Source of the DNA: Brevibacillus humidisoli
GTDB taxonomy: Bacteria; Bacillota; Bacilli; Brevibacillales; Brevibacillaceae
Reading direction: 5' to 3'
DNA length: 64,000 nt
NCBI RefSeq assembly: GCF_020923435.1
Contig: NZ_CP087263.1
Span: 2,871,970 to 2,935,969 of the forward strand
The notes under the pieces are model-generated. The model was not told the origin of the DNA. It worked only from the letters and a program-made list of their open reading frames with translations, and ran no database searches. Below are positions 8,561 through 40,593 of this stretch, in pieces; within the stretch, counting starts at the first letter, position 1; each line of letters begins with the position of its first letter. A program made the position numbers and the translations under genes.

Positions 8561-9364
8561 TTAGTGGCGGGATGCAGGACCTTCTGATTCCTCATCCGTC
8601 TGCTGCATTTTCGTCTGGTGATCTACTGCTCCGGACAGGTACGGAAAGCCGAGACCGGAAACTGGTGATGTCCGTTCTCCTCCTGCATGGCTCCCGGCTA
8701 CGTCCTCACGGGCAGTACTGCTTGACGGAGCAGACGGCATGGTTGGATAAACAGGTCCTGGTGGCGCCTGTACCTGTTCGGTTGGCTGAAAGCGGGAAGC
8801 GTCTGCGGCAGACCGTTCAGTCGTTGGCTGATACCGACCCAAAACATGTGCAGAGGCGGTGGGCTGCAGCGTCGAGAGTTCGTAGAAACCACGTCTGTTC
8901 ATGTACCCCCATGTCTCGAAGGCCTGCATCGCACAGTTGTTGGCTGCTTGCAAGAGTGCGCTTCGTATCTGGGCATCGGCGCACTCCAGTGCGGCATCCA
9001 TGCGCAGTTTGGCACCTGCTTTGTGAGTGCCAAGCAGAGTGGATACCACATCGCGGTCATCAATCAGCTCGAAAGCCCGATTGGGCCGCTCAACCTGCTC
9101 TCCGCCCTGCATACCGGCTTGTTGCCCAGGGGCAGCAACCTTCTTGTAAGAACTGGCTGCCGGCATCCCCCGGCCGTGAATCAGGTGAATCAGGCTATTG
9201 TATTCATCCGTCATAAACGAAAGCTGGTGACTTACGATCTGTTCAAGCTCTGGATCCTGCACGTATGACAGATAGACCCGAAACAGATTTAGGGCGTCGA
9301 CCGAAGCGGCAAGAACCTCATGGAGTTCGATCACTTCATGTGCTCCGTACTGGTGGTGTTGCAT
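8561..9364 (-). CDS. Spore coat protein, CotF family
   Basis: 267 aa. The N-terminal about 160 residues form two helical CotF-type repeats (AHEVIELHEVLAASVDALN..., later ALLQAANNCAMQAFETWGYMNRRGFYE), the latter being the common ferritin-like coat signature. The last 100 residues are low-complexity, rich in Pro, Ser, Gln and Thr, as in other coat proteins that extend from a structured core. No signal peptide, as expected for assembly from the mother cell. GAGG-type ribosome site before ATG 9364. Isolated gene with its own terminator. Confidence 0.82.
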   Translation of the reverse strand: MQHHQYGAHEVIELHEVLAASVDALNLFRVYLSYVQDPELEQIVSHQLSFMTDEYNSLIHLIHGRGMPAASSYKKVAAPGQQAGMQGGEQVERPNRAFELIDDRDVVSTLLGTHKAGAKLRMDAALECADAQIRSALLQAANNCAMQAFETWGYMNRRGFYELSTLQPTASAHVLGRYQPTTERSAADASRFQPTEQVQAPPGPVYPTMPSAPSSSTAREDVAGSHAGGERTSPVSGLGFPYLSGAVDHQTKMQQTDEESEGPASRH

Positions 9365-9674
9365 CGCATTCGCCTCGCTTTCGAATTGATTTTAGGCATC
9401 ACCTACCAGTATGTCCCAAAGTGATCGACATTTTCCGGGTTTTTGAAGAATAATAGGCAGAGAGACCAGGCGTTCGCCGTTCCAGCCGAATGTCCTATTT
9501 TGTTACTTAAAATCATAAACATGTACGGTATAATAGAGTGGAGTTCACGCATCAAACGGAGGAAACTGCTTGCACCTGAAACGCCCTTCGGCCACTTTTT
9601 GCTCTGGTTGCCAGGCAGGATCTCAAAGGTAGTGATAGGAATGATTGCCATCTGGTACAAAGAAGGAGATCACG
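9365..9674. other. Intergenic region between divergent coat gene and DedA gene
   Basis: 310 nt without a credible gene. TATAAT at 9530-9535 on the plus strand is a candidate -10 box for the DedA gene, without a good -35 box. No repeats or structured RNA seen. Confidence 0.4.
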
Positions 9675-10235
9675 ATGTTTGATACCATTTCCGAGATTTT
9701 CATGCAGTACGGGCAATTCGGTTTATTTGCCCTTTCCTTTCTTGACTCATTTATTTTGCCTGTGCCGCCATTTTTTCTGCAGATCGCGATGAGCCTTGTC
9801 TCACCAGCGGACGCGTTGTATTACGCAACGGTAGCCTTCTTTGGCTCGGTGCTGGGCGCCCCGATGGGGTACCTGCTCGGCAAGGCATTGGGCAAACCGC
9901 TGATGCATAAAGTGGTTCCCGCCCGCTGGGTTGAGGTGGCGACGGATAAGTTTACAAAGGACGGCGATGCCGCCGTCCTGATCGGATCGTTTACCCCGAT
10001 CCCGTACAAGGTATTTACGATCCTCTCCGGCGTATTCGGATTTTCGCTGTTTCGGCTGATCGTGTATTCGATCCTCGGACGAGGGATCAAGTTTTACCTG
10101 ATCGGTGTCTTGTTCTTTCTCTACGGCAAGCATGCGAAAGAGCTGCTGGATCAATATCTGGAGGTTTCGCTGCTTGCGGTGGCTGTCATCCTTACCTTAG
10201 GATGGTTCCTCCTGAAGCGTCGAAAAAAGAGATAA
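9675..10235 (+). CDS. DedA / VTT-domain membrane protein (YqaA-like)
   Basis: 186 aa from ATG 9675, with AAGGAG 8 nt upstream; the in-frame ATG at 9645 has none. DedA-family proteins are polytopic membrane proteins linked to lipid (undecaprenyl phosphate or phospholipid) scrambling. Seen here: FLDSFILPVPPFFLQ at about 17-31, the re-entrant Gly-rich FGSVLGAPMGYLLGK segment, and FTPIPYKVFTILSG, with a C-terminal TM helix and RKKR tail. Its last 39 nt overlap the 3' end of the convergent acyl-CoA dehydrogenase gene. Confidence 0.85.
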   Translation: MFDTISEIFMQYGQFGLFALSFLDSFILPVPPFFLQIAMSLVSPADALYYATVAFFGSVLGAPMGYLLGKALGKPLMHKVVPARWVEVATDKFTKDGDAAVLIGSFTPIPYKVFTILSGVFGFSLFRLIVYSILGRGIKFYLIGVLFFLYGKHAKELLDQYLEVSLLAVAVILTLGWFLLKRRKKR

Positions 10236-22693: not shown

Positions 22694-22845
22694 GCCACTA
22701 CGATTCCTGTGAGGCATTGCTTTTTCTGCTTTTCATGGGATTAATCAGGAGGGGTAGTTTCCTCATCTCATTGCTTGCCGGACTTCGAGCGGCTTTGTTA
22801 TTTCTCTGAGGTCTGTGGAGGGGTAAGCAGTAACGGATCAGATTT

Positions 22846-23052
22846 TTAACCGACTGGTTCGGAATTTTTCTTTCTAATCTGTTTCAGATGATTAGAGCGC
22901 ATATACGGAATCCCGATCGCAAGAATCAGCAGATCAAGAGGGAATTCCCACCGGTAGAATGACAAGATTATACCTGCCGGGGTAATGAGTACATAAAAAT
23001 AGATCATCATAAACTTCCAAAACCGCTGCCAGTTTCGTTCCTGCTTGGACAC
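22846..23052 (-). CDS. Small two-helix membrane protein, intact copy of a tandem pair
   Basis: 68 aa from GTG 23052, 9 nt after GGAGGT. Begins MSKQERNWQRFWKF, then two hydrophobic segments (about 14-33 and 38-51) and a basic tail. Function unknown. The gene directly upstream on the same strand (23098-23304) is exactly the same length and similar in layout but is interrupted by a stop codon. It lies at the distal end of the Tad locus; whether it belongs to it is uncertain. Confidence 0.65.
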   Translation of the reverse strand: MSKQERNWQRFWKFMMIYFYVLITPAGIILSFYRWEFPLDLLILAIGIPYMRSNHLKQIRKKNSEPVG

Positions 23053-23097
23053 AATGATCAGACCTCCAAACGAATAGTAGGGCTAGAAAAGTTTATC

Positions 23098-23304
23098 CTA
23101 TTCTGATCGTTTCGCTTCCTGTCGGCGCAACTGCTCCATTGACATATCTTCGATAAACGGCAAGGAGAACCAAAAAGCGATAATCGCGTAGGGAATTGGT
23201 TCTCCAATTAAAATCAAAAGAGAAGTGAACGGCAACAAAACTCCATATGTAAGAACACCTAGGATGTTCTAGAATCGTTGATATCTTCTTTCTCTTGTGC
23301 TCAC
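23098..23304 (-). pseudogene. Paralogue of the 68-aa membrane protein with in-frame TAG
   Basis: Reading from GTG 23304 (AAAGGAG about 11 nt upstream) gives MSTRERRYQRF, then TAG at 23269-23271, then an open frame of 56 residues (NILGVLTYGVLLPF... ending QLRRQEAKRSE) to TAG 23098. Total 69 codons, identical in length to the neighbour. The stop sits where the neighbour has Trp12 (QRFW), so a TGG to TAG change explains it. Probably a dead duplicate; read-through is not excluded. Confidence 0.65.
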
Positions 23305-23360
23305 GGGGAGGATCACTCCTTTACGAAGATCTTCGGGAAATAACCGGCCTTAATCCCTTC

Positions 23361-24692
23361 TCAACCCACTGACTCATCTCCAGTCCCGCTATACTTCTGA
23401 TCAATCTCCTCCTTCATCTCTTCGTAGGACTTCTCCGTAAGCGTCAGCAGATACTCGATCAGTTCCTCTTTCGAACGGGTCACAAACGCTTCCCGCGCTT
23501 CCCGTTGTTCGGTAAAATACGCCTTTGCCTCGCTACCGATCTTTCGCGCAGCGTACAGATAATCAATCGCAGCGCCCAGATTGAGGCTTTCCCGCCAGTT
23601 TTTCTCGTACCAGTCTTTGTCATATCGCTCGATCCACTTGTGCCGATCGATACGGACCGCCTCCGCCTCCGAGAGGGCGTTCTGCTTCCACTTCTCCCAT
23701 CTCTCGGCGATTTCTTTTGCCCTCTCCAACTCCTGCTTAAACTGCTCCTGGTTGGTCACGTTGGCGTATAATCCTTCAGCAGCTTGGGCAATCGCCTTTA
23801 GCTGCTTCTGGCCATCGGCATTCACATCGAACCCGATGACATTAAGCAGCGGCATGATCTCAGACTGGGACAGCTCTTTGGCCACGGCAATGGGATCACC
23901 GTCACAGGTCTCAATCCCGTCGCTGACCAGATAGATCACATTGGTATTCTTGTCCGCATCCAACCCTGCCATATCGTTTTGAGCGAGCCTCAAGGAACCG
24001 GCAATTGGCGTCCAACCAGTCGGTTCAAACCGCTCCAGCGCTGCCTTGATCTCCTCTGCATCGTAAGGCTGCAGCGGATAGACCAGCTCACTGCTGCTGC
24101 AGGAGAGTTCTTTGTGCTCATCGGCATTGCTGCCCTTATGCCCGTAGACGCGCAGCGAGACATTGGCCCCCTCCGGCAGCGATTGGGCAAACTCCTGAAT
24201 TGCTTCTTTGGCCAACTGCATCTTCCTCTTTTCTCCAATCTTCCCTGCCATGCTGCCGCTGGCATCGAGGATGATCTCCACGTTGAAATGCTCTTTAAAA
24301 TGAAAACGGGCATCCTCCAGGTCAGGACTGCCGAATGACGCCATTCTCCAGCGATCGACTACCGACTGTGGACTGAGGTAGTCTTCTGTAAATAGCGAGT
24401 TCAGTTTGACCCAATACATCGGCAGCATCTCGGGATTCAAGCCGTCCGGCAGGTTAGGCAGCTGGTCGAGCACCTGTTGGATCGTCTGGTTATGCGGGTA
24501 ATCGGACAGATAAAAATGGGTACCGGCAAACGGTCCCGGTTGGACGACGACCAACTCTTGGGTTGTTTGGGGCAGTTGAGGCTTCTCAGCAGAGGAACCC
24601 GGGGGGGATGCACTGGGTGAACAGCCACTAAGCAGGCCCAGAAGCAAGCTACTGGTCATCAGTAGAAACAGCAATCGTTGTACGCAGCTCAT
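23361..24692 (-). CDS. VWA-domain lipoprotein 1 of the Tad locus
   Basis: 443 aa from ATG 24692 (AAGGCGG 8 nt upstream). Lipobox LLSGCS. A Pro/Ser linker leads to an about 80-residue N-terminal region (PGPFAGTHFYLSDYP...), then a von Willebrand A domain with a complete MIDAS: DASGSMAG, T in PTGWTPIAG, D in LVSDGIETCDGD. Cys residues in KELSCSSSEL and IETCDG are shared with the second VWA protein and could pair. The C-terminus is a charged helical region. Closest in type to YfbK/BatA-like Ca-binding VWA proteins. Likely extracellular, membrane-anchored; last core gene of the Tad cluster. Confidence 0.85.
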   Translation of the reverse strand: MSCVQRLLFLLMTSSLLLGLLSGCSPSASPPGSSAEKPQLPQTTQELVVVQPGPFAGTHFYLSDYPHNQTIQQVLDQLPNLPDGLNPEMLPMYWVKLNSLFTEDYLSPQSVVDRWRMASFGSPDLEDARFHFKEHFNVEIILDASGSMAGKIGEKRKMQLAKEAIQEFAQSLPEGANVSLRVYGHKGSNADEHKELSCSSSELVYPLQPYDAEEIKAALERFEPTGWTPIAGSLRLAQNDMAGLDADKNTNVIYLVSDGIETCDGDPIAVAKELSQSEIMPLLNVIGFDVNADGQKQLKAIAQAAEGLYANVTNQEQFKQELERAKEIAERWEKWKQNALSEAEAVRIDRHKWIERYDKDWYEKNWRESLNLGAAIDYLYAARKIGSEAKAYFTEQREAREAFVTRSKEELIEYLLTLTEKSYEEMKEEIDQKYSGTGDESVG

Positions 24693-24786
24693 CTGTCTCA
24701 CCGCCTTGTTACGATGGTATGGATCGGTAAATGTGTCTGGGCTGTTTTTTTAAAGGTCGATGCACGCGTGTGAGAAATAGGCATGG

Positions 24787-25455
24787 TTACGGAAAGAAGG
24801 CAGCCGTGCTGAAGCCGACGGCATCCAAGAAACCCACTTGTCTGCTTTGCGCAGTCTGATACACCTGCTCTTCATAGGAAGGCATGAACTCCAAGCCGAA
24901 CGTAACTGACTCATACTCAACCGCAGCTTTTACTTCGATTCGATCATCACTGGTAAACATCTTGATTGTATAGTCGGACTGTGAAGCTCCATTCTCAGCT
25001 AAGATGGTATGCACCGCCTGTTTCACCTTTGCACGAGACGCTAGCAGACCTGCAGATACATATGCTTGCAGTTCGAGATTACCGGGCAGCATAGAGGACA
25101 ATACATTATCGATGGCCGCATAATGAATCTCACTATCCGCCCAACCTGTATGGCGAGACCGCAGTTGGGCCTTCTCCTTTTGGACCAAGGGCCAAATAAA
25201 TACCGGGTCTTCCAATCGGGCTATCGATCGATCATACCGATCAATCGCATCTTCAATCTCTTCATACACCGCTTTGGTCGCAGCAAAGGTGGCTTGCTGG
25301 GCAGTGTTGGCCGCCTGCTGCTTATCCACGAAAACCGTTGAAAAATTAAAAAGCGCAACAAACAGGGTGAAGATCATGAAGTAGAAAATCGTCATGGAAA
25401 AGATCGTGATATTCCCACGTTCTTCGCGCAACAGAACAAACAATTGCTTTCCCAT
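24787..25455 (-). CDS. TadG-like pseudopilin without VWA domain
   Basis: 222 aa from ATG 25455 (AGGTGA upstream). N-terminal REERGNITIFSMTIFYFMIFTLFVALFNF is the type IVb-like hydrophobic segment typical of TadE/TadG proteins (putative Flp pilus-assembly TadG-like). The rest is soluble and extracellular: helical linker DKQQAANTAQQATFAATKAVY and a beta-rich C-terminus. Proteobacterial TadG carries a VWA domain; here it is missing and two VWA lipoproteins sit nearby instead. Next to tadE. Confidence 0.75.
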   Translation of the reverse strand: MGKQLFVLLREERGNITIFSMTIFYFMIFTLFVALFNFSTVFVDKQQAANTAQQATFAATKAVYEEIEDAIDRYDRSIARLEDPVFIWPLVQKEKAQLRSRHTGWADSEIHYAAIDNVLSSMLPGNLELQAYVSAGLLASRAKVKQAVHTILAENGASQSDYTIKMFTSDDRIEVKAAVEYESVTFGLEFMPSYEEQVYQTAQSRQVGFLDAVGFSTAAFFP

Positions 25456-25513
25456 ATCCATCACCTGATTTCTCGGTTCCCAGGCACCCGGGTTCGTGTC
25501 GTGGTCGGGAGGT

Positions 25514-25936
25514 TTAGTGGATCTTCCGGCTGCGCAGCTCCTGCTCGATCGGAATGGCTAGGTATTGCTCATCTTCGTCCACTACATTTTTTGTGATGAT
25601 GTCCGGTAGAAAGGTAAGGTTAAAGGAAACATCCACATTCACCGTGAAATACCCGTCAGATGTTGTGTTTGAGATGGAGAGGCTATCAAAGGTTAATGTT
25701 TCGCCTACGGTTTCCACGATCTTCTCCGCCGCCTGCTCCGCCTCACTCTCGTTTTCGGTTATCGAATATACCTTAGCCGCCTCATTGGCTGCCGATTGGG
25801 TGACAATCACCGCATAGACGCCCATCAGAAACTGCCATAACACCAGCATGCCGATAAATACGGCGGGCAGGATACCGATGAATTCAACGGTGACCGAACC
25901 TTTTTGGTTGTTGAAATAACCCTGTTTTGAAGCCAT
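25514..25936 (-). CDS. TadE-like pseudopilin
   Basis: 140 aa. N-terminal NNQKGSVTVEFIGILPAVFIGMLVLWQF has the G/S-x4-E pattern of a prepilin cleavage site with Glu5 and a hydrophobic helix, as in TadE. Acidic extracellular part of about 95 residues. Minor pilin or tether of the Tad pilus. The maturing prepilin peptidase is not encoded in the window. Confidence 0.8.
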   Translation of the reverse strand: MASKQGYFNNQKGSVTVEFIGILPAVFIGMLVLWQFLMGVYAVIVTQSAANEAAKVYSITENESEAEQAAEKIVETVGETLTFDSLSISNTTSDGYFTVNVDVSFNLTFLPDIITKNVVDEDEQYLAIPIEQELRSRKIH

Positions 25937-25968: not shown

Positions 25969-26676
25969 TTAGTCTGCCAACGGTTCGGGGCTACGCTCCC
26001 CGTGCATATCATTCCGCCATTTTCGAACGTAAAACGTGATCAAAACAACCATAAACGGGTAGATGATCATATTTAACATAATTTGACTAAACAGAAAGGC
26101 GGCATAATTGCTTGTAACCATAGATATTCCGAATAAACCAGTGAAGCCAATCAGCCACTCTACGACACTCATTACCAACAGCAGACCAAAAAGCGGTAGA
26201 AAATTCCTCTTCCCCAGTTGAAAAGCTACTTGCCAACTTTTCCACGCAGACTGGTCTTTCATTACGACCAAGAATGGTGTGAGGAAAAAAAGCGTTAGTA
26301 CTATCAGACCTGGAACAATAAACAGGAGCGACCCCATCAGTACCAGCAAAACGTACAGCAGACCAAACAAAAAGACGGAGAACCCATGTACAAAAAATGT
26401 GCGGAACGCTCTACGCAGCCCCTTCTCTTCTCCTTCAACCTCACTTTGCACATATTGAACAAACGGTAGTTGGCCTACGAAGAAAAACAATAACATGTAA
26501 AACGTATTAACAACATCGCCAAAGGCATTTGTATCTGTTAACACCGTCCAGAAGTAAACGTAATTTGTCACAAAGGTGTGAAGCAGAGAAAAGGGCAACA
26601 CGATGGCGAACGCCAACAACAGCAGATATTCAATATTTCTCGCGTAAAATATTACACTTTGTTTAAAAGGATGCAT
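25969..26676 (-). CDS. Polytopic membrane protein of unknown function in Tad locus
   Basis: 235 aa from ATG 26676 (AGGTGA upstream; GTG 26685 overlaps it). About six TM helices with a central conserved-looking loop FFLTPFLVVMKDQSAWKSWQ, similar in style to the glycerophosphodiesterase membrane-domain/UPF0259 class. Lies between the 289-aa protein and tadE, so it could be an inner-membrane accessory of the pilus. AT-rich relative to the tad core. Confidence 0.7.
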   Translation of the reverse strand: MHPFKQSVIFYARNIEYLLLLAFAIVLPFSLLHTFVTNYVYFWTVLTDTNAFGDVVNTFYMLLFFFVGQLPFVQYVQSEVEGEEKGLRRAFRTFFVHGFSVFLFGLLYVLLVLMGSLLFIVPGLIVLTLFFLTPFLVVMKDQSAWKSWQVAFQLGKRNFLPLFGLLLVMSVVEWLIGFTGLFGISMVTSNYAAFLFSQIMLNMIIYPFMVVLITFYVRKWRNDMHGERSPEPLAD

Positions 26677-26796
26677 GACCGTCACCTGTTTTCAATCTTG
26701 ATTTTACCGAGTGAGTAAATGTTGAGTAAGCATCGTAGTGTTTACGTTAATCTGATTAGATATAGCACCGGTCAAAACAAAGTTGAAGGGAATTTA

Positions 26797-27666
26797 TTAC
26801 TCGTTTCTCAAACCATCTATAAACACTCGTTTTAAATCAAACTCCGCCCTTCGCTCATACATTTTCATCATTTGTTCAATTCCGCGTTCGCCCGGTGCAA
26901 AGGTTACGGGTTGACCATGTTCATCTTTTTCAAACCCACTAAGTGACCGACGTAACTTTTTCAAAGAATCTGGATCAAGGTACTTTTTAATGAGTTGCAG
27001 CAGTTGACCTACAGTAGACCTTACCTGAAGATCTACCTGATTGTGATGCTGATTTAAGAACGTTCTGATTCGTCGAACCAAGGGAAGAGACTCCAACTGC
27101 TTACGTCCTTCTGCATACATGGTTCGCTGCCACTCTCTCATCAGTTTGCGCATTTGCTCAACATCTTCGGGTGTCAAGGTATAATTTCTTTTCTCATGCA
27201 CAGTATCATCTACTTGCTGCATTTCATCGTAGATTTCCTGTAACCGTTGTTGACCGGTGTAGATAGTTTGCAAGGATTGTCGGAAACTATGCCAATCCTC
27301 CTGAATCTCTAGAAAACTAGGGAAAGATGAACACTCGGGTTCCAGTTGATCAAGTAATGCCATCATGTTTTGAATGGGCCAAATCGGTCGAGCTTTGTCA
27401 CGACTTAACTTGTCAGTCCCTTCCGCCACTATACTGTTATAATTTCCAACCATTACGGCAATTTTCTCTGCTTCATCACGCGATACCACCTGGGCATATA
27501 GATCCAAAATTAAAATCCCGGCTCTACTTCCTGTCCGTTTGTAATAGACATAATAGTATTCGCTATCGTTCCACTTAAACGTGTAAGGAAACAGCGTGGC
27601 ACTTTCCAACCATTTTTTGTATTTTTTTATTTGTGCCTTAATTTCTGGTGTCTCTACCGCTTTCAT
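26797..27666 (-). CDS. Unknown cytoplasmic protein linked to the pentad-repeat protein
   Basis: 289 aa, no signal peptide or TM. The first about 85 residues form a compact alpha/beta-looking domain (FPYTFKWNDSEYYYVYYKR... GILILDLYAQVVSRDEAEKIA); the remainder is helical, with charged coiled-coil-like segments about 130-205. Starts 24 nt after the stop of the secreted repeat protein, GGGGGATATCAG before ATG, so it is translationally close to it. It may be a chaperone, inhibitor or assembly partner; I recognise no family. AT-rich. Confidence 0.7.
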   Translation of the reverse strand: MKAVETPEIKAQIKKYKKWLESATLFPYTFKWNDSEYYYVYYKRTGSRAGILILDLYAQVVSRDEAEKIAVMVGNYNSIVAEGTDKLSRDKARPIWPIQNMMALLDQLEPECSSFPSFLEIQEDWHSFRQSLQTIYTGQQRLQEIYDEMQQVDDTVHEKRNYTLTPEDVEQMRKLMREWQRTMYAEGRKQLESLPLVRRIRTFLNQHHNQVDLQVRSTVGQLLQLIKKYLDPDSLKKLRRSLSGFEKDEHGQPVTFAPGERGIEQMMKMYERRAEFDLKRVFIDGLRNE

Positions 27667-27690: not shown

Positions 27691-28893
27691 TTAAAATCCG
27701 AACCAGGATTTAACCTTATTGAAACCTTTCTTGACTGCATCCACGGTTCCTTTGATTACTTTTCTGCCCGTTTTCGAATTAGCCCATTTAGCGACCATGC
27801 TACCTACGCTTAACACCGTTCCAACTACGATTAATCCTCCCGCTACTGCTTGGACTGCGGGAATCGGAACGCGTGAAATCATCATTCCTACGTTGGTCAT
27901 GGAATCTCCCACATTACCCACCATACCAATCACTGCATCGGTTTTTTCCTGGTCATTTTTTGCATTTTCGTAAGCAAGTTTATTATTAGCGAATTCGGAT
28001 AGAGACAGTCCCAATCCTACAGCACCCAAATATGGGTTTGCTTTGGGTACATCCAGATTGAGGTTGCTACTTTTCGAAAACCATGGTTTTAAGTTGTTTG
28101 TCCCCTGTCCAAAACGTCGGTAATTCGTTTCAACGGCATTTCTTGCGTCTTGAAAATACCTACGCGCATCAAAAGCGTCATAAACTTTCAACCCCGCATC
28201 AGCAAGATCGGCTGAGAATTCAAAAGCTTCGTTTCCTTTTGAACCTAGCTTGTAGATCTCCAAAAACTGGCGGCCTTTCAGGTTCAACACTTTGCCTTTT
28301 AAAGTACTTTGATCAAAGTCAGGTGCACTCAACTCTTCAACAAATACAACGGTATGATTTAAAATCCCTGTCGTCGATTTTAACGCATCCAGAGCTGTTG
28401 GACCCTTTCGCTCCGATGCGTTTGGTTGATCCAAGCCTGGTTGGTTCAACTCTGGAACAAGGGATTCTGGTTGCTGTGGATTTGGATTCCCTAGGGTTGG
28501 AATACCAGTTTGAGGAATCTCCAGATCTGGTGACTGTGCATTTGGAACTTCCAAACCGGGTATTTGTGACCCCGGCGCCTCGAGCCCTGGTACATCCAAG
28601 TCTGGTACTTGTAACTGTGGTACATCTGACTTAGGAACATTTAGTTCCGGTCTATCCCACTCAGGAGCTTGTAGATCAGGAGCATCCCACTCAGGAGCTT
28701 GTAAGTCTGGAGTATCCCAATTGGGTGGTTCCATCTCCGGTACTTCCCATTCCGGGTTATTCAATTCAGGAACCTGGTATTTCGGTGCTTCAAGATTTAC
28801 TTCTGCGAACGCAACGAGGGGTAAAAAGTTCATGAAAAGAATCAGAAACGCAAACATTCCGGCCCATATCGGGCCTCTTACTAATTTCCTCAC
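27691..28893 (-). CDS. Secreted protein with 24 proline pentad repeats and hydrophobic C-terminal domain
   Basis: 400 aa from GTG 28893 (GGGAGGG upstream). Signal peptide about 1-30 (ends VAFA-E). Residues 37-157 show Pro at every fifth position without a break, as P-(E/D)-(L/W)-x-x units, which would make an extended stalk. A helical region (about 165-300) follows, then Gly-rich hydrophobic stretches (AVAGGLIVVGTVLSVGSMVA) and a basic amphipathic tail KKGFNKVKSWFGF. The C-terminus resembles membrane-active or toxin-like tails in general character only. Located between VWA lipoprotein 2 and the 289-aa protein, so likely exported or displayed with the Tad system. Confidence 0.75.
   Translation of the reverse strand: MRKLVRGPIWAGMFAFLILFMNFLPLVAFAEVNLEAPKYQVPELNNPEWEVPEMEPPNWDTPDLQAPEWDAPDLQAPEWDRPELNVPKSDVPQLQVPDLDVPGLEAPGSQIPGLEVPNAQSPDLEIPQTGIPTLGNPNPQQPESLVPELNQPGLDQPNASERKGPTALDALKSTTGILNHTVVFVEELSAPDFDQSTLKGKVLNLKGRQFLEIYKLGSKGNEAFEFSADLADAGLKVYDAFDARRYFQDARNAVETNYRRFGQGTNNLKPWFSKSSNLNLDVPKANPYLGAVGLGLSLSEFANNKLAYENAKNDQEKTDAVIGMVGNVGDSMTNVGMMISRVPIPAVQAVAGGLIVVGTVLSVGSMVAKWANSKTGRKVIKGTVDAVKKGFNKVKSWFGF
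28420..28785 (-). repeat. 15-nt-period repeat encoding proline pentads
   Basis: Coding repeat with an exact 15-nt period through about 24 units. Neighbouring units share longer 30-nt blocks (the DLQAPEWDAP-type pair occurs twice), which points to recent expansion by duplication. Confidence 0.85.
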
Positions 28894-28938: not shown

Positions 28939-30369
28939 CTATTGCTTGGTCTCATTGCTTTTTGTATTCTCGTTATACTTTTGATGGATGGCTTCAATGG
29001 TTTCTTTGTAGGTTTTGTTATTCAGTGAGTTCAGAAATTTTTTCTGTTCATCTCCCAAACTCTTAGCCCTTTTGTAATGTTCTTTTCTTAACTTAACAAT
29101 TTCATCAATTATATCTTTGGAAACATAGTCCTCTAAATCAGATTCTGCTAGTCGTAAATGATGATTCTCATCACCTGCTGAAAAAACCCATTCAAGAGCA
29201 AATGCGCCGATATCCAGCATACGCCTTACTCGGGTTGAATTAGCATCTTGAGATGCCTCAAACCTCCACTTTCGCCATTTTTGCGCCACTTCTTCCGCTT
29301 TCTCAAATTCTTCCCGTAGTTCCTTTTGATTCTGGATCAACACGTAACGACCATTCGCGGCCTTTGCTACCTCTTTTAGCTGCTGCTGTCCTTCCCCATC
29401 CACACCAAATCCAATCACATTGACCAGCGGAGTAATCTCAGAGTCGGCCAGCTGTTTTGCCACTTCTACTGGATTTCCATCGCACGTCTCAATTCCGTCA
29501 CTGACCAGATAGATGATGTTGGTATTCTTCTCCCCAGACAGGCCCTTTAAATCGTTTTGCGCTTCTTGTAAGGAGCGGGCAATGGGCGTATACCCGGTGG
29601 GCTGGAATTGATTGAGGGCAGTCTGCAACTTTTCCGCGTCGTAGGGTTGCAGATCATACACCAATTCACTGCTACCGCATGACAGTTCTTTATCCGATTC
29701 TTGACTACTACCTTTATGTCCATATACGCGAAGGGCGACATGGGCTTCTTCCGGCAAAGACTCCGCAAAGGACTTGATCGCTTCTTTCGCTGCTTCCATT
29801 TTTGTCTTGCCTCCCACTTTGCCCGCCATGCTTCCACTAGCGTCCAGAATGATCTCTACGTTGTACTGTTCTTTAAACTGATATCGGGGATCGTCTATCT
29901 CTGGGTTCCCGAATGAAGCCATTTTGATCTCATCAATGAGCTGCTGGGGATCAGGATAATCCTCTGCAAACAAGCCCAATAGAGCAAGGAAGTACATCTC
30001 GATGATCTCGTCATCGGGGTTATCGATGTTGGGAAACTGCCGTAGAATTGATTCTATTTCCTCTCGATGTTCTGAATAAGAAACACCGGCAAAGCGTCCT
30101 GGAGCAAAGGCGGCAAACTCTTCTGCTGTTTCTGGGATCTTTTCAATCCCTTCAGGAATCATCGCTTGTAAATCCTTTATTTTTTCTTCACGGCTTGTTG
30201 TTTGATCCGTCTTGTCATCAGATTGACTGGGATATTCCGCCTTTTCTTTATCAGTTGTTTTGGTTACGGTTTCTGGAGAAGGTTCGTTTTGTTTTCCCTC
30301 ATCTGGAGAACAAGCGCTCAACATGGTAAAGAGGAGGATAGTTACCCCTAATAGCTTGATATTTCTCAT
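28939..30369 (-). CDS. VWA-domain lipoprotein 2 of the Tad locus
   Basis: 476 aa from ATG 30369 (GGGGGG 9 nt upstream; the in-frame TTG 30375 is too close). Lipobox MLSACS, then a Glu/Lys/Thr/Ser-rich linker of about 60 residues. Same architecture as VWA lipoprotein 1: PGRFAGVSYSEH-type pre-domain, MIDAS DASGSMAG, TGYTPIAR and SDGIETCDGN, shared cysteines, charged helical C-terminus with predicted coiled coil. Clearly a paralogue. It sits directly after the pilin gene. Role in pilus tip, adhesion or assembly is inferred from VWA domains in TadG-type proteins. Confidence 0.85.
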   Translation of the reverse strand: MRNIKLLGVTILLFTMLSACSPDEGKQNEPSPETVTKTTDKEKAEYPSQSDDKTDQTTSREEKIKDLQAMIPEGIEKIPETAEEFAAFAPGRFAGVSYSEHREEIESILRQFPNIDNPDDEIIEMYFLALLGLFAEDYPDPQQLIDEIKMASFGNPEIDDPRYQFKEQYNVEIILDASGSMAGKVGGKTKMEAAKEAIKSFAESLPEEAHVALRVYGHKGSSQESDKELSCGSSELVYDLQPYDAEKLQTALNQFQPTGYTPIARSLQEAQNDLKGLSGEKNTNIIYLVSDGIETCDGNPVEVAKQLADSEITPLVNVIGFGVDGEGQQQLKEVAKAANGRYVLIQNQKELREEFEKAEEVAQKWRKWRFEASQDANSTRVRRMLDIGAFALEWVFSAGDENHHLRLAESDLEDYVSKDIIDEIVKLRKEHYKRAKSLGDEQKKFLNSLNNKTYKETIEAIHQKYNENTKSNETKQ

Positions 30370-30453
30370 TTCCAAATACCCCCCTACTTACTGGAAAACA
30401 ACTTCAGTGCTAAAAGCAAATCCTTCTAATTTATCGCTGTGTGAATGTATAAT

Positions 30454-30879: not shown

Positions 30880-31815
30880 TCAGCGGAACAGCTCCTTAAA
30901 AATGCTGGCATTCTCCAAGATGTTCAGAACCATCAACCCGCCGATCAACATAATCGCAGTCGGCGCCACGACGAAGGTCGTAATCAAGGTCACTTTCGGC
31001 GATGCCTTGGCCGCCTTTTCCTTCACCAGTTCCTTCCGTATCCGCCGCATGTTCTCCGACTGTGCCTTAAACGTGACCGCGATGGGTACTCCCAACCTCA
31101 TGCCCTGCACCAGCGCCTTGATCAGCATCTGAAATTCCGGGTTGTCATTGCGCCGCAGCAGCTGCTCATACGCCTTTTCCCGCGGTACGCCGAGGTCCAG
31201 CTCCTGGTTGAAGCGGGAGAACTCCTCACGGATCGGTCCCTCAAAAAACTTGATCACTTCCCGCAGCGACTGATCTAGGCTTACCCCCGCCTGCAGGGTG
31301 ACGCTGACCGTATCCAAAAACTCAGGCAGGTCGTAACGCAGCTGATTCTGCCGCTCTGTTGCCTTCCTCTTGATCCAGATAATCGGCAAAAAATAGCCAA
31401 TCATCGGCCAGATCACCAAGCCAAACTGGGCAAAGGGAAAGCCCAGCAGGAAGAAGAAAAGTCCCACGATCAAGCCGAGCAGGGCAAGTACGATCTTGAT
31501 TCCCTGAAAACGAGCGACCGTCAGATCAAGCGGTCGGCCCGCTTTCAGCAACCAGTCCTCCACCTCGTGTGACTCGCTGAAAAAGTTAAAGCGCTGGCCC
31601 AATGCGGCGTAATCATCTCCGTAGCGGAGCAGGCGCTTCACCATACGCTCTGAAGAGGTTTCCGGCTTGCGGATGTTGTACGTTCTGTATCCGGTGACGT
31701 CATGCACATGGTCAATCAGCTTTTGTCGCTCAATTGTGTACCGGTACCATTCTTTAAGAAAGATGGCGAAGAAGAGCATGCACAAAAACAAGCTGGTGAT
31801 GATAAAGGCATCCAT
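30880..31815 (-). CDS. tadC: Tad pilus inner-membrane protein TadC
   Basis: 311 aa. Type II secretion F-domain protein: N-terminal TM, cytoplasmic region, a TM pair (about 105-150), the T2SF core YDLPEFLDTVSVTLQAGVSLDQSLREV, and C-terminal TM helices. Forms the platform with TadB. Starts 4 nt after the tadB stop. Confidence 0.92.
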   Translation of the reverse strand: MDAFIITSLFLCMLFFAIFLKEWYRYTIERQKLIDHVHDVTGYRTYNIRKPETSSERMVKRLLRYGDDYAALGQRFNFFSESHEVEDWLLKAGRPLDLTVARFQGIKIVLALLGLIVGLFFFLLGFPFAQFGLVIWPMIGYFLPIIWIKRKATERQNQLRYDLPEFLDTVSVTLQAGVSLDQSLREVIKFFEGPIREEFSRFNQELDLGVPREKAYEQLLRRNDNPEFQMLIKALVQGMRLGVPIAVTFKAQSENMRRIRKELVKEKAAKASPKVTLITTFVVAPTAIMLIGGLMVLNILENASIFKELFR

Positions 31816-31819
31816 AATT

Positions 31820-32746
31820 TCACACCTTTATGTTGGTTACTTTCTTAACCAGGATGTAAGAGAGAATCGTACCGATCGCGAATAATACCAGCAAGACCAA
31901 GCCCACTCCTTTAAACAACGGATCGATAAAGCCCTTGTTCATCATGTTCATCATCAAGACGAGGGCGATCGGCATGATTGGTACAAGGATCGAGACGTAG
32001 CGCTGTTCGGCGGTCATCGTCTTGATCTCCTGGTTGACGATCCTCCGGTCCTCCATCGTCTCCGCCATCTCCTGCAGCACCTGGCTGAGGTTGCCGCCGG
32101 CCCGCCGCTGGATCAGTAGCGTGGCGGCGAAGATGCGGAAGTCACGGGACGGAATGCGCTTCTCCATGTCAATGAGGGCTCGTTCAAAACTGACGCCGAG
32201 CTGCAGTTCACGGTTCATCCGGCTGAATTCGTCCCCTGCCGGATAACTCAACTCCCGGGCCACCAGCGCGACCCCCTGCTGCAGGGTCATGCCGGCGCGT
32301 AGCGAGTTGGCCAGCAGGCGGCAGATCTCGGGCAATTGATCATTGAGCCGTTGCTGATACTTGTTGCGCCGCACGAAAAACATGATGCTTTGGATCACGT
32401 ACATGGCGGCCACTCCGCCTAGAACATTGTAGGGAAACGAGAGACCAACTACATTGTTGAGGAAAAAAGCGATGCCCATCGAACCGACCAGTAATATCCC
32501 GTAAAACTCAGAGGGGGCAAGCGGCAGGTTGGCTTTCTTCAACTTCTTCTCTATCTCTTTGGCATGAGCAGTTTGGTCAAACCTGTCGCCCCAGACGATG
32601 ATGAAGCTCTTGCGGGTTGACTTGACGTCATACCACTCTTCCGCTTTCTTTTTCCACTCGCTTTTTTTCGACCGGTAGCTGAGGTAGTCATAGATCCCCC
32701 AGATACCCAGCAGTACCGCGAGACTAAACAGGATAGAGATGGTCAC
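31820..32746 (-). CDS. tadB: Tad pilus inner-membrane protein TadB
   Basis: 308 aa from GTG 32746, overlapping the 3' end of tadA by 23 nt. T2SF domain with DQLPEICRLLANSLRAGMTLQQGVALV and the following RMNRELQLGVSFERAL. TM helices near the N-terminus, about 85-125 and at the C-terminus. Partner of TadC in the assembly platform. Confidence 0.92.
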   Translation of the reverse strand: MTISILFSLAVLLGIWGIYDYLSYRSKKSEWKKKAEEWYDVKSTRKSFIIVWGDRFDQTAHAKEIEKKLKKANLPLAPSEFYGILLVGSMGIAFFLNNVVGLSFPYNVLGGVAAMYVIQSIMFFVRRNKYQQRLNDQLPEICRLLANSLRAGMTLQQGVALVARELSYPAGDEFSRMNRELQLGVSFERALIDMEKRIPSRDFRIFAATLLIQRRAGGNLSQVLQEMAETMEDRRIVNQEIKTMTAEQRYVSILVPIMPIALVLMMNMMNKGFIDPLFKGVGLVLLVLFAIGTILSYILVKKVTNIKV

Positions 32747-34100
32747 CTGTTTTCACCTCTTCCACTTGAAAAATCGATTCATCGATCTCGATGCCAAATA
32801 CCCTCAGCCGTTCCAGACAGTGCGGGATCACCCCTGTGGGCGTAAAGTAGCCGAGCACTTCTCCTTTTTTGCCGATCCCGATCCGATGAAAGCGAAAGAT
32901 CTCGTTTACCTCCACTTGTTTGTTCGGTCTGGTCACCACTTCCGAGATGGAGACGATTTTCCTCGTCCCGTCGGAGAGACGCATCACCTGGACGATGAAA
33001 TCGAGGGCACTGACGATATATTCGCGGATGACGGAGGCGGGCAGATCCATCCCGGCCATAATCACCATCCCCTCCAGCCGGTTAAAAGCATCCTGCGGCG
33101 AGTTGGCGTGGACGGTGGTCAGCGAGCCTTCGTGACCGGTGTTCATCGCCTGCAGCATGTCGAACGCTTCCGCACCGCGCACCTCCCCGACGATGATCCG
33201 GTCTGGGCGCATCCGGAGCGAGTTTTTCACCAGATGACGGATGGTGATCTCCCCTTTTCCCTCCATGTTGGGCGGGCGTGCTTCCATGCCGACACAGTTG
33301 GGCCGCTCCAGCTTCAACTCCGCGGAGTCCTCGATCGTGATGACCCGCTCGTAGTGCGGGATCGCCCGGGCGACTGCATTGAGCAGGGTAGTCTTTCCGC
33401 TGCCGGTACCGCCGGAGATCAGGACGTTTAGCTTGGCTTCCACGATCCCCTGCAGGAAGCGGGACATCGCTTCGTTAAAGGATTGAAATCCTTGCAGATC
33501 GTCCATTGTGTACGGTTCTTTGCGGAATTTACGGATGGAGATCAAAGTGCCATTAAGGCTGATCGGCGGGATCACCACGTTGACGCGGCTGCCGTCTTTG
33601 AGCCTGGCATCGACCATGGGGGAGCTTTCGTCAATCCGCCGACCGAGCGGAGCGACAATCCTATCTACGATGTGCCGCAGATGCTCCTCGTCGCGAAACT
33701 TCAGATCGGTTCGCTCCAGACGTCCGTTTTTCTCGATGTAGACTTCTTTGTGCCCATTGATCGAGATCTCTGTAATCTCAGGGTCACCCAGCAGTGGTTC
33801 CAGCGGTCCAAAGCCGACAGACTCGTTGATCAGCCGGGTGAGCAGGAGTTCTTTCTCATTCCTGGGAATGACGACTTTCTCTTCAGACATGTACTGGGAG
33901 ACCAGCCGTTCGATAGCCAACCGCATCTCACCGGCGGAGAGACTGGTCAGCCGTTCCAGATTGGTCTCACGCAACAGCCGGGCCTTGTAGTGTTCAGCCA
34001 GTTCATCAATATAAGGGTTATGGTAGGAGGAAGCCACCTGGGTACGTGGTGCTTGCTCGCTCTCTGCTGGTTTGTCTCGTTTTCGTTGAAATAAGGCCAC
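32724..34100 (-). CDS. tadA: Tad pilus assembly ATPase TadA/CpaF
   Basis: 458 aa from GTG 34100. Type II/IV secretion ATPase that powers pilus assembly. Walker [16 protein letters not shown], Asp box region [11 protein letters not shown], Walker [14 protein letters not shown], and the His box [21 protein letters not shown]-terminal about 90 residues form the CpaF-type helical domain. Full length for the family. Confidence 0.96.
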
Positions 34101-34114
34101 CCTGCCTCACCCTC

Positions 34115-35272
34115 CTACGACAGCTTCTTTAGCACCCATTTGCGAATGTCTTTTGCTGCCGGTATCAGCTTTTTCTCGTTTGCCTCTTTTTGCAGCGGCA
34201 GCCCCTGGTTGACTGCTGCCTGGACGCCGCGATGGTCTCGCCGAACTTCGGCGGCAATCGGGGCATTGATCAGTCCCTTCAGGTCGGAGATGGTCAGTTC
34301 GTTATCCCTACCTATCTGATTCACTACCACTTCCATTCTCCCAGCCGTATCGATCCGCAGCCGTCTGAACAAATCCTCGACCAACCGGAAGATCTGCACC
34401 GAAGGAGTGTCCAGGTTCATCACATAGTAGATAAAGTCTGATTCTTCCAGCGCTGTATAGGTCAACTCGTTCATGTTGGCCGGCAGATCGATGATCACAA
34501 AGTCGTAGCTGCGTCGGCTGGCCCGGATCAAACGGCTCACAAACTCTTCGGTCATGTTCTCTGCCGTCTCCGCATCGCGGGGACTGAGCAGGACCTCCAG
34601 TTTGGAATGGTTCTCCCGCTGCGACACATTGCGGATGTGATTCTCGTTCATCTCGTGCATGACCGGGATCAGATCTGCCAACGTGCGGTTGCTGTCCAAC
34701 GACAAAAAGGTCTCTGCTCCTCCGTACTGCAAGTTCAGGTCGATCAGCAGCACGCGGGCGGTGGACTCCAGCTTGAGCGACTGGGCAAAGCCGGTCGCCA
34801 GCTGTGTCCGGCCGCTCCCCCCTTTGCCGCTGTAAAAGGAGTATACTTTTCCACGCCCCCGGACAAACGCCTGTCCCGAGACAGACGTTCCTCTCTTTCT
34901 CTGCTGCTGCTGCATCAGTTCGGAAATTTTATCCAAGCGATCGGTCAGCAGAGAGAGTTCATCCGGCATCAGGATATATTCAACCGCACCTGCGCGGACG
35001 ATGTCCCGCAGCAGCACAAAATCCTGCTTCTCGGTGAGAAAGATGATGATTCCTTCTGGCAGTTCACTCTGTATGTATTGCACCAGTTCCACGCCGGAAC
35101 CGTCCTCTGGCTGCACCAGCAGTACAACCTGCGGACCGATCCGGTCAATCTCTTTTTTTACTTCGCGTGACGTGGTGTACTCTACCTGTTGATAAGAGGC
35201 GAGTGCTTCCTGCAGCAGATCTTTTACTGAATCGTAATCAGCGACGACGAGTAGTTTGATCCCTGTATTCAT
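34115..35272 (-). CDS. tadZ: Pilus localisation protein TadZ/CpaE (receiver-like plus ParA/MinD-like ATPase)
   Basis: 385 aa. N-terminal receiver-like domain (about 1-125) followed by a MinD/ParA-type ATPase beginning YSFYSGKGGSGRTQLATGF. The signature Lys of the deviant Walker A is present, but the Lys of GKT is Arg; CpaE/TadZ proteins often have a degenerate P-loop. Walker B-like VLLIDLNLQYGG and FVIIDLPANMNE. ATGA overlap with the upstream cpaB gene. Likely positions the pilus machinery. Confidence 0.88.
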   Translation of the reverse strand: MNTGIKLLVVADYDSVKDLLQEALASYQQVEYTTSREVKKEIDRIGPQVVLLVQPEDGSGVELVQYIQSELPEGIIIFLTEKQDFVLLRDIVRAGAVEYILMPDELSLLTDRLDKISELMQQQQRKRGTSVSGQAFVRGRGKVYSFYSGKGGSGRTQLATGFAQSLKLESTARVLLIDLNLQYGGAETFLSLDSNRTLADLIPVMHEMNENHIRNVSQRENHSKLEVLLSPRDAETAENMTEEFVSRLIRASRRSYDFVIIDLPANMNELTYTALEESDFIYYVMNLDTPSVQIFRLVEDLFRRLRIDTAGRMEVVVNQIGRDNELTISDLKGLINAPIAAEVRRDHRGVQAAVNQGLPLQKEANEKKLIPAAKDIRKWVLKKLS

Positions 35273-36075
35273 GGCTGCCCCTCCGGTTTCGCGTCTGGAT
35301 TGGCGGGCGGCTGCTGATCTGTGACCGGCACATTGACGGATGGATTGGCTTGATCTCCAACCGGTGTGACCGCCTGGTCGCCAGTCCCGCTCTGAGGTTG
35401 CTGCTCGGACGTCTCCTCACCCTGCTGAGGGGGCTGATCAAAGGGCTGCGGGATGCCCAATTCACCTTTCCCGACGTTTGCCTTCAAGATTCGGATGAGA
35501 TCTGCGTAATGCTGTTGATGGATAAAAGACGGTACTTGCTCAAACGGCAGTTCTAGAGCCACACCTTTAAACTGATCATCCACTTTGGCTACCATCGCCA
35601 CCGGGACATCCTTCATAAACACTTCTGTGACCTGTTTTCCATTCACCTCGTGGGAGACGATGATGTCTACGCGATCCAGCGCTTCCAACTGCTGATCAAA
35701 AATCACCCTCCCCGATGCGTACACGGTAATGAGACGATTGTTCTGGTCCCGTACGATGGTAGCAGGCTTGATGATGTTCGTGGTAATAATGTCACCTTCG
35801 GACAACGGCACAACGGTTACTTTGTTCTTTAGACTCGCTTTGTCCGTAATGTACGAATCATCTGCGTACTTCTTGGGCAGCTGCCTGGTCGTCACTTGGT
35901 CTGGCTGGATCAGCGAACGGGATGCAACATCGGTTGAGGCAACGTAAATCTCAACCATTTCTCCCAGCTCTGCATTGATCTGCTGGATCTTTTTCAAAAA
36001 CAGGAACCCGGCCAGCAGGGCTAGCAAAAACGATAACGTTAAAAAAATGATGGCTCTTCGCTTTGACTCCAGCAT
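35269..36075 (-). CDS. cpaB: Flp pilus assembly protein CpaB/RcpC (SAF domain)
   Basis: 268 aa. N-terminal TM helix (about 8-27), SAF domain (about 40-110, including LIQPDQVTTRQLP and VVPLSEGDIITTN), RcpC-type beta domain to about 210. The last 50 residues are a Pro/Gln/Glu-rich tail. GAGGTAATCACCAC before ATG 36075. In Gram-negatives CpaB works with the secretin; here no secretin exists, so it may span or bind the cell wall. First gene of the tad operon. Confidence 0.87.
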   Translation of the reverse strand: MLESKRRAIIFLTLSFLLALLAGFLFLKKIQQINAELGEMVEIYVASTDVASRSLIQPDQVTTRQLPKKYADDSYITDKASLKNKVTVVPLSEGDIITTNIIKPATIVRDQNNRLITVYASGRVIFDQQLEALDRVDIIVSHEVNGKQVTEVFMKDVPVAMVAKVDDQFKGVALELPFEQVPSFIHQQHYADLIRILKANVGKGELGIPQPFDQPPQQGEETSEQQPQSGTGDQAVTPVGDQANPSVNVPVTDQQPPANPDAKPEGQP

Positions 36076-39921: not shown

Positions 39922-40593
39922 CTAAACCACATTTTTTTCCGCATCGGAACCGGTGCCTTTATGCCCATATACGCGAAGTCCGACATTCGCTTCCTTGGGA
40001 AGAGAAGATAGATAATCGGCAATCGCTCCTTTGGCCAGTTCCATGCGCGTCTTGCCGTCCATCTTATTCGCCATGCTGCCGCTCGCATCGAGCACAATCT
40101 CGACGTTGTACGTTTCCTTTTGCAATTCTGCCGGTACCGCGCCGGAGCCGTCCGGCATCGACTGGCTGTAATTCATGCTGATGCTGCGCGGGTTCGGGAA
40201 ATCCGGCTTCACCAAACTGTAAATATAAGTAAAATACTGCTCGATTTCCGCATCGCTTGCATTTTCGGACGGGACGGGAAGCTTTGCATAGAATGCTTTC
40301 GCCTCTGGATCCGCTTCGATCTTTGTCACCCCATGAAACCGCCCCACCGGATACTCGATCGTTTCCATCATCGACGTTGGCAGCGGGGGCGCTTCTCCCC
40401 AGCCTTCGGGAACCGCCTGCTGGTTAAGATCTTCGCCGCTTTGTTCTCCGCCGCCGGATGAGGGATCCTGTTCGGCCTGCTCCGGTACGGGCGTCTCCGA
40501 ACCGACCTGTTCCAAGGGTGACTGTTGCGATGTTTCCGATCCCTTGGTGCATCCGGTGAGCAGCAATACGCATACAAGCGTCAGGTATGTCAA
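39922..40593 (-). pseudogene. Truncated VWA-domain lipoprotein (third paralogue)
   Basis: 223 codons. Lipobox LLLTGC, long Gln/Glu/Pro-rich linker, then PVGRFHGVTKIE, YNVEIVLDASGSMANK and VGLRVYGHKG, aligned with VWA lipoproteins 1 and 2. It stops (EKNVV) just after VYGHKG, losing the last two MIDAS motifs and the C-terminal half. The czrA promoter begins 16 nt later, so a deletion probably joined the two. TTG 40593 is the most likely start but lacks a strong ribosome site. Confidence 0.8.

Follow-up and report, generated by a model that had tools for sequence, protein, structure and literature searches.

Tad operons have been described in Gram-positive bacteria, where the Tad/Flp (type IVc) pilus loci keep the TadZ, TadA, TadB, TadC, TadE, TadG and Flp-like genes together (PMC3244431). 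The matching passages of that article name no gene pair like the one reported here, and the word Brevibacillus is absent from its main text; going by titles and the openings of abstracts, the literature searches returned no paper about the pair. The pair consists of two small membrane protein genes, a and b, at the end of a Tad/Flp cluster, and one of them, b, has a stop codon near its start: the reading that we consider probable is that b is an early-stage pseudogene of the derived paralogue of an accessory Tad-pilus pair, of which a remains.

The window, namely the whole stretch of 64,000 nucleotides under analysis, holds the cluster on its minus strand, from 36075 to 22846 (Table 1), with TadZ, TadA, TadB/TadC, TadE/TadG and Flp found together; Pfam recognised TadE, Tad, VWA, AAA_31 and SAF, and the other names were assigned by reading the translations. 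The order of the genes is CpaB/RcpC-like, TadZ, TadA, TadB, TadC, Flp candidate, VWA1, 400-aa, 289-aa, 238-aa, TadE, TadG, VWA2, b and a, and a convergent acetyltransferase gene comes after a. Regarding the names, we take the translations to be those of TadA, TadB, TadC, TadZ and CpaB/RcpC, and the 73-aa frame is presumably an Flp-type pilin, given its Flp-like features; in the relatives, TadB also gives matches to the gene of TadC, and TadC to that of TadB. Compared with the Gram-positive Tad loci, this cluster has in addition the VWA lipoproteins, the proteins of 238, 289 and 400 aa, and the b-a pair. The same cluster occurs in the genus mate G002, where ~70 bases separate the lipoprotein gene from the acetyltransferase gene and the pair is missing between them.

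Other irregularities were observed for genes of this kind. A third VWA lipoprotein frame of 223 aa occurs in the window at 39922-40593, minus strand, and, compared by eye with the longer copies, it seems to stop in the middle of the VWA domain; three or more copies of the first VWA lipoprotein gene are present in the clusters of G005 (L043) and G037 (L108); and in G005 (L043, about 9193-9890) the match to the 238-aa gene is split into two pieces that overlap and lie in different frames, in a frameshift-like manner.

Table 1. Features of the Tad/Flp cluster and of the b-a pair, in window coordinates.
Feature	Coordinates	Strand	Evidence
Gene a, intact 68-aa two-helix membrane protein, ancestral-type paralogue	22846..23052	-	ORF; orthologues in 10 other family genomes; predicted hairpin
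Gene b, derived paralogue with internal stop, most likely early-stage pseudogene	23098..23304	-	10/10 orthologues without internal stop
Possible 46-aa restart frame of b from TTG, candidate only	23098..23238	-	Second TTG at 23235; GGAG 23244-23241
In-frame TAG, codon 12 of b	23269..23271	-	Trp column in 9/10 relatives, Leu in 1/10
VWA2, VWA-domain lipoprotein directly upstream of b	23361..24701	-	Pfam PF00092 1.7e-12; lipobox-like start by eye
TadG-like protein	24787..25464	-	Pfam PF13400 'Tad' 7.3e-5, barely over cut-off
TadE-like protein	25514..25936	-	Pfam PF07811 5.6e-7
TM238, 238-aa membrane protein	25969..26685	-	Matched in 22/22 relatives' clusters examined
289-aa cluster protein	26797..27666	-	No Pfam match at 0.01
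400-aa cluster protein, N-terminal part repeat-rich (by eye)	27691..28893	-	
VWA1, VWA-domain lipoprotein	28939..30375	-	Pfam PF13519 1.7e-13
Flp-type pilin candidate, 73 aa	30537..30758	-	ORF with KGAQAIEWIALAG stretch
TadC, TadB, TadA (three genes)	30880..34100	-	Names assigned from the translations
TadZ-like ATPase	34115..35272	-	AAA_31 6.2e-16
CpaB/RcpC-like protein, first cluster gene recognised	35269..36075	-	PF13144 ChapFlgA 4.5e-5 and PF08666 SAF 7.9e-5, both barely over cut-off

As for the two genes, they lie in tandem on the minus strand and have the same length in the window. Translation of a runs open from a GTG start to a TAA stop, giving 68 aa; b also starts with GTG and has 68 codons before its final TAG, open apart from one internal TAG, and SD-like GGAGG and AGGAG motifs precede the GTG starts of a and b by 10 and 11 bases, respectively. 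Thus, the coordinates, starts and SD-like sites agree with the two equal-length GTG frames with ribosome sites of the initial annotation, which had also placed an in-frame TAG in one copy and proposed that the two genes were alike. That the two are unrelated small ORFs, similar by chance, could be argued from their identity, which is just 14 of 68 positions, and from the hydrophobic character of most of both proteins; against this, the two-sequence BLASTP E value was 2e-8 with none of 1000 shuffles scoring as high, the a profile matched the b profile with an E value of 5.1e-12 across 65 columns, and both are conserved as proteins in 10 other genomes. Chance likeness is refuted by this conservation, and the probability left to it is negligible. 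Instead, the strict length conservation proposed initially did not hold outside the window: with starts chosen by the analyst, b had 66 aa in nine of the ten relatives and 59 aa in the other, and a had 66 aa in eight of ten, the other two having 64 and 74 aa.

The distribution of the pair was determined in a family sample of 39 genomes, searched first with b and afterwards with a profile of a. Strong matches to both came from the same 11 genomes, which are the window's own (G000) and ten of a second genus, with E values of 3.1e-15 or better for b and of 3.0e-37 or better for the a profile; the weak family matches, with E values of 0.01 and worse, were left out of this count (with thresholds of E 0.5 for b and 0.1 for the a profile, matches of any strength were obtained in 21 of 39 and 14 of 39 genomes, respectively). 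In all 11 genomes b is directly followed by a, and the pair invariably lies within this Tad/Flp pilus cluster; the two further genomes that belong to the genus of the window lack it. Among named genomes, a scan returned five loci, from Brevibacillus thermoruber, parabrevis, gelatini and formosus and from a record titled Anoxybacillus sediminis; these are probably the same records as five of the ten relatives. The relatives' b proteins are 44-61% identical to that of the window, reading its stop as W, and the a proteins are 53-71% identical. The a of G020 (L049, 9667-9891, minus strand) is peculiar in that its tail differs from all the others from residue 54 on, is frameshift-like, and brings the protein to 74 aa.

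When all the a and b sequences were placed in one tree along with two single-copy relatives, b and a formed separate clades (support 100/99 and 84/96, respectively), and each of them contained both genera; on the simplest reading, the duplication thus predates the split of the two genera. Accordingly, the designation as a tandem duplicate is apt for an old paralogue pair, kept in order in 10 other genomes, and not for a recent copy: a recent tandem duplication was rejected, as the tree along with the ten paired relatives favours an old one. The position of a from G000 is odd, being on a long branch within the G007/G008/G009/G014 group (86/87), whereas its b falls outside that group; the cluster tree puts G000 with G002, again outside the G007/G008/G009/G014 group (100/100). 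Long branches could account for this position, or else the lineage may have received a, or the whole pair, by transfer. With reference to a recent plasmid source, the DNA of 22700-23400 had no match in the plasmid collection at E 1e-5.

Outside the family, the a profile was searched against 398 genomes of the class, scoring at most 15 candidates per genome so that counts are lower bounds on presence: at least 13 genomes matched, namely the 11 of the family and two more, G385 and G393, from two other families. The search of the class with the b profile, under the same limit, found G393 again along with a doubtful match in G263, weak (7.3e-6) and sitting within a 302-codon frame. G385 and G393 each have a single a-type gene, clustered with homologues of Tad and VWA genes; like a, these genes carry W-R-R-[FV]-Y close to the beginning and [RK]-x-N-H-I close to the end, with 45% and 31% identity, respectively, to the best-matching a, and unlike the family pair, they have no second copy in the surrounding 20 kb. 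The simplest history suggested by these sequences would be that of a single Tad-linked a-type gene that was duplicated later in this family.

Within the family, the pair behaves as an optional part of the cluster. A close TadB (E below 1e-140) occurs in 23 of the 39 genomes, and 11 of these 23 have the pair, compared to none of the other 16. Twelve of the 23 cluster genomes miss the pair, four of them carrying deletion scars, which indicates that the pair is dispensable. Also its position varies: in five genomes it is flanked by the 238-aa gene and TadE (with a VWA gene intervening between a and TadE in G005), in four between TadG and the second VWA gene, and in two, including the window, after the second VWA gene. 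In G028 (L045, reverse-complement about 9316-9763), fragments of a TadE gene and of a VWA gene come after the b-a pair, a sign that the pair may be moved by the duplication of segments combined with partial loss. When presence and absence were placed on the tree of four cluster proteins, five changes were needed, four of which were forced by well-supported branches.

The losses are best seen among eight near relatives that form one clade (100/100), of which four have the pair and four lack it, the latter all with scars; each scar was defined by aligning these four genomes with the four nearest paired ones. In G026 the start of b is fused to the tail of a; in G015 (L110) and G021 (L111), between TadG and VWA2, the ribosome site and the first codons of b are in frame with the lipoprotein gene, so that the start of b now appears to serve this VWA lipoprotein gene; G004, the weakest of the four scars, retains just some four codons of an a-like tail. 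The partial genes left in these genomes point to deletion rather than to original absence. For the other eight genomes without the pair, a search for remnants at three positions gave nothing convincing, with matches of just 10-14 bases at E 0.03 or worse.

Regarding the state of b, this gene is free of internal stops in all ten relatives; the 'TAA' counted by the first search in b of G003 and G016 is the final stop. Past its stop, the window b keeps 12 of the 16 columns that do not vary among the other ten, and the window a keeps 13 of 15. The four departures of b are the most among the eleven b proteins, followed by G028 with two of 14, and G000 is the sole member of its genus among these eleven. 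The branch length of G000 is 0.33 for b versus 0.43 for a; the ratio of b to a distances averaged 1.60 over nine G000 pairs versus 1.32 over 29 other pairs (range 0.92-1.74), after dropping 17 of the 55 pairs, i.e., those with G020, whose a tail differs, or those whose a proteins were at a distance of 0.15 or less. Four of the nine G000 ratios were above that range, and in each of these the partner came from the G007/G008/G009/G014 group, whose a proteins are unusually close to that of G000. Relaxed selection on the window b is possible from these comparisons. In simulated neutral drift, assuming 10% indels and a kappa of 2, the frame after the stop was open in 28% of the runs at 0.05 substitutions per site, in 9% at 0.1, and in 2.6% at 0.15. 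Since this frame is open and its columns are mostly kept, the death of b, if b is dead, would be recent relative to the age of the pair. The proposal that selection acted until recently is then favoured by the open frame, the 12 of 16 columns and the shorter branch, and not by the equal length on which it had been based; the number of departures and the four high distance ratios are signs to the contrary.

The main competitor of the pseudogene reading is that sequencing or assembly introduced the stop by error, with b intact and working, and we consider it unlikely. It would explain why b looks maintained, with an open frame, most of its invariant columns, a GTG start and an SD-like site, and it would agree with the intact b of all ten relatives; opposed to it, twelve other cluster genes with long matches in the relatives have open frames in the window, indicating that errors are uncommon in this region, and the assembly is a single contig, 99.97% complete. 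Moreover, should the assembly come from long reads, their typical error would be an indel, and not a substitution. The other possibility is that b is expressed in spite of its stop, by read-through or by a restart at the TTG of codon 23 or 24, which is improbable on the whole. The restart finds some ground in the GGAG located 5 bases ahead of the second TTG and in the downstream frame being kept; nevertheless, its product would miss the N-terminal third, and with it roughly two thirds of the first helix in the model (residues 3-33), and the Gly codon that yields GGAG is, in the analyst's judgement, within ordinary synonymous choice.

Recoding of the TAG is unlikely as well: no stop occurs at the codon-12 column in any of the ten relatives, where a recoded stop would be conserved, RF1 is present in the genome with a score over the cut-off, and TAG ends 4 of the 18 other genes inspected (VWA1, TadA, TadZ and a Dsb-like gene). 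On the grounds of RF1 and these TAG-terminated genes, a reassignment of TAG in this genome was rejected. As for a suppressor, the window has no tRNA, and no RNA family reached the Rfam gathering scores in it. A further variant, to which we give very little credit, slightly less than to expression of b as such, is that a truncated b restarted at TTG 23 or 24, or a low-level read-through b, is still made and tunes its partner a; in that case, this lineage would have turned a regular Tad-pilus accessory into a weakly expressed or truncated form.

Both proteins are predicted to be helical hairpins: the AlphaFold2 model of a has two helices, 3-34 and 39-64 (mean pLDDT 87), and that of b, read through the stop, has helices at 3-33 and 39-66 (mean pLDDT 79). 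Both ends of both proteins are basic and, by the positive-inside rule for membrane proteins, this suggests that both termini are inside the cell. A Foldseek search of the a model against the PDB gave no match at E up to 10, and the Pfam and NCBIfam scans of the 11 a and 11 b members found no convincing family: Pfam returned SpoIIGA for one a member (0.04, under its cut-off) and nothing for the 11 b members, while with NCBIfam one a member matched a putative glycosyltransferase family (best 0.0047) and four b members, at E up to 0.1, matched F0F1 ATP synthase subunit A (best 0.011). Given their linkage, with the pair in 11 of the 23 cluster genomes and in none of the other 16, a and b are putative accessory membrane subunits of the pilus machine, and perhaps partners of each other.

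In conclusion, we favour early decay of b: a and b would be an old paralogue pair of about 66-68 aa, an optional unit in the Tad/Flp cluster of this family, of which the derived copy b was probably struck by a single nonsense codon near its start, as the first stage of decay, while a persists. Gene b would give no useful protein now, and its loss may be tolerated because the accessory function is dispensable. By itself, the stop in b would be one more accessory gene caught early in decay, and it matters little alone; the more useful part of the finding is the pair, recurrently lost and shifting in position, which offers natural variants where it is present, absent or half-broken for testing its role. 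With respect to the ordinary nonsense pseudogenes of bacterial accessory genes, b has the same traits, that is, an early stop in an otherwise open frame, intact orthologues, and losses in related species; nothing essential differs from them, and the stop of the window seems young when set against how far the orthologues have diverged.
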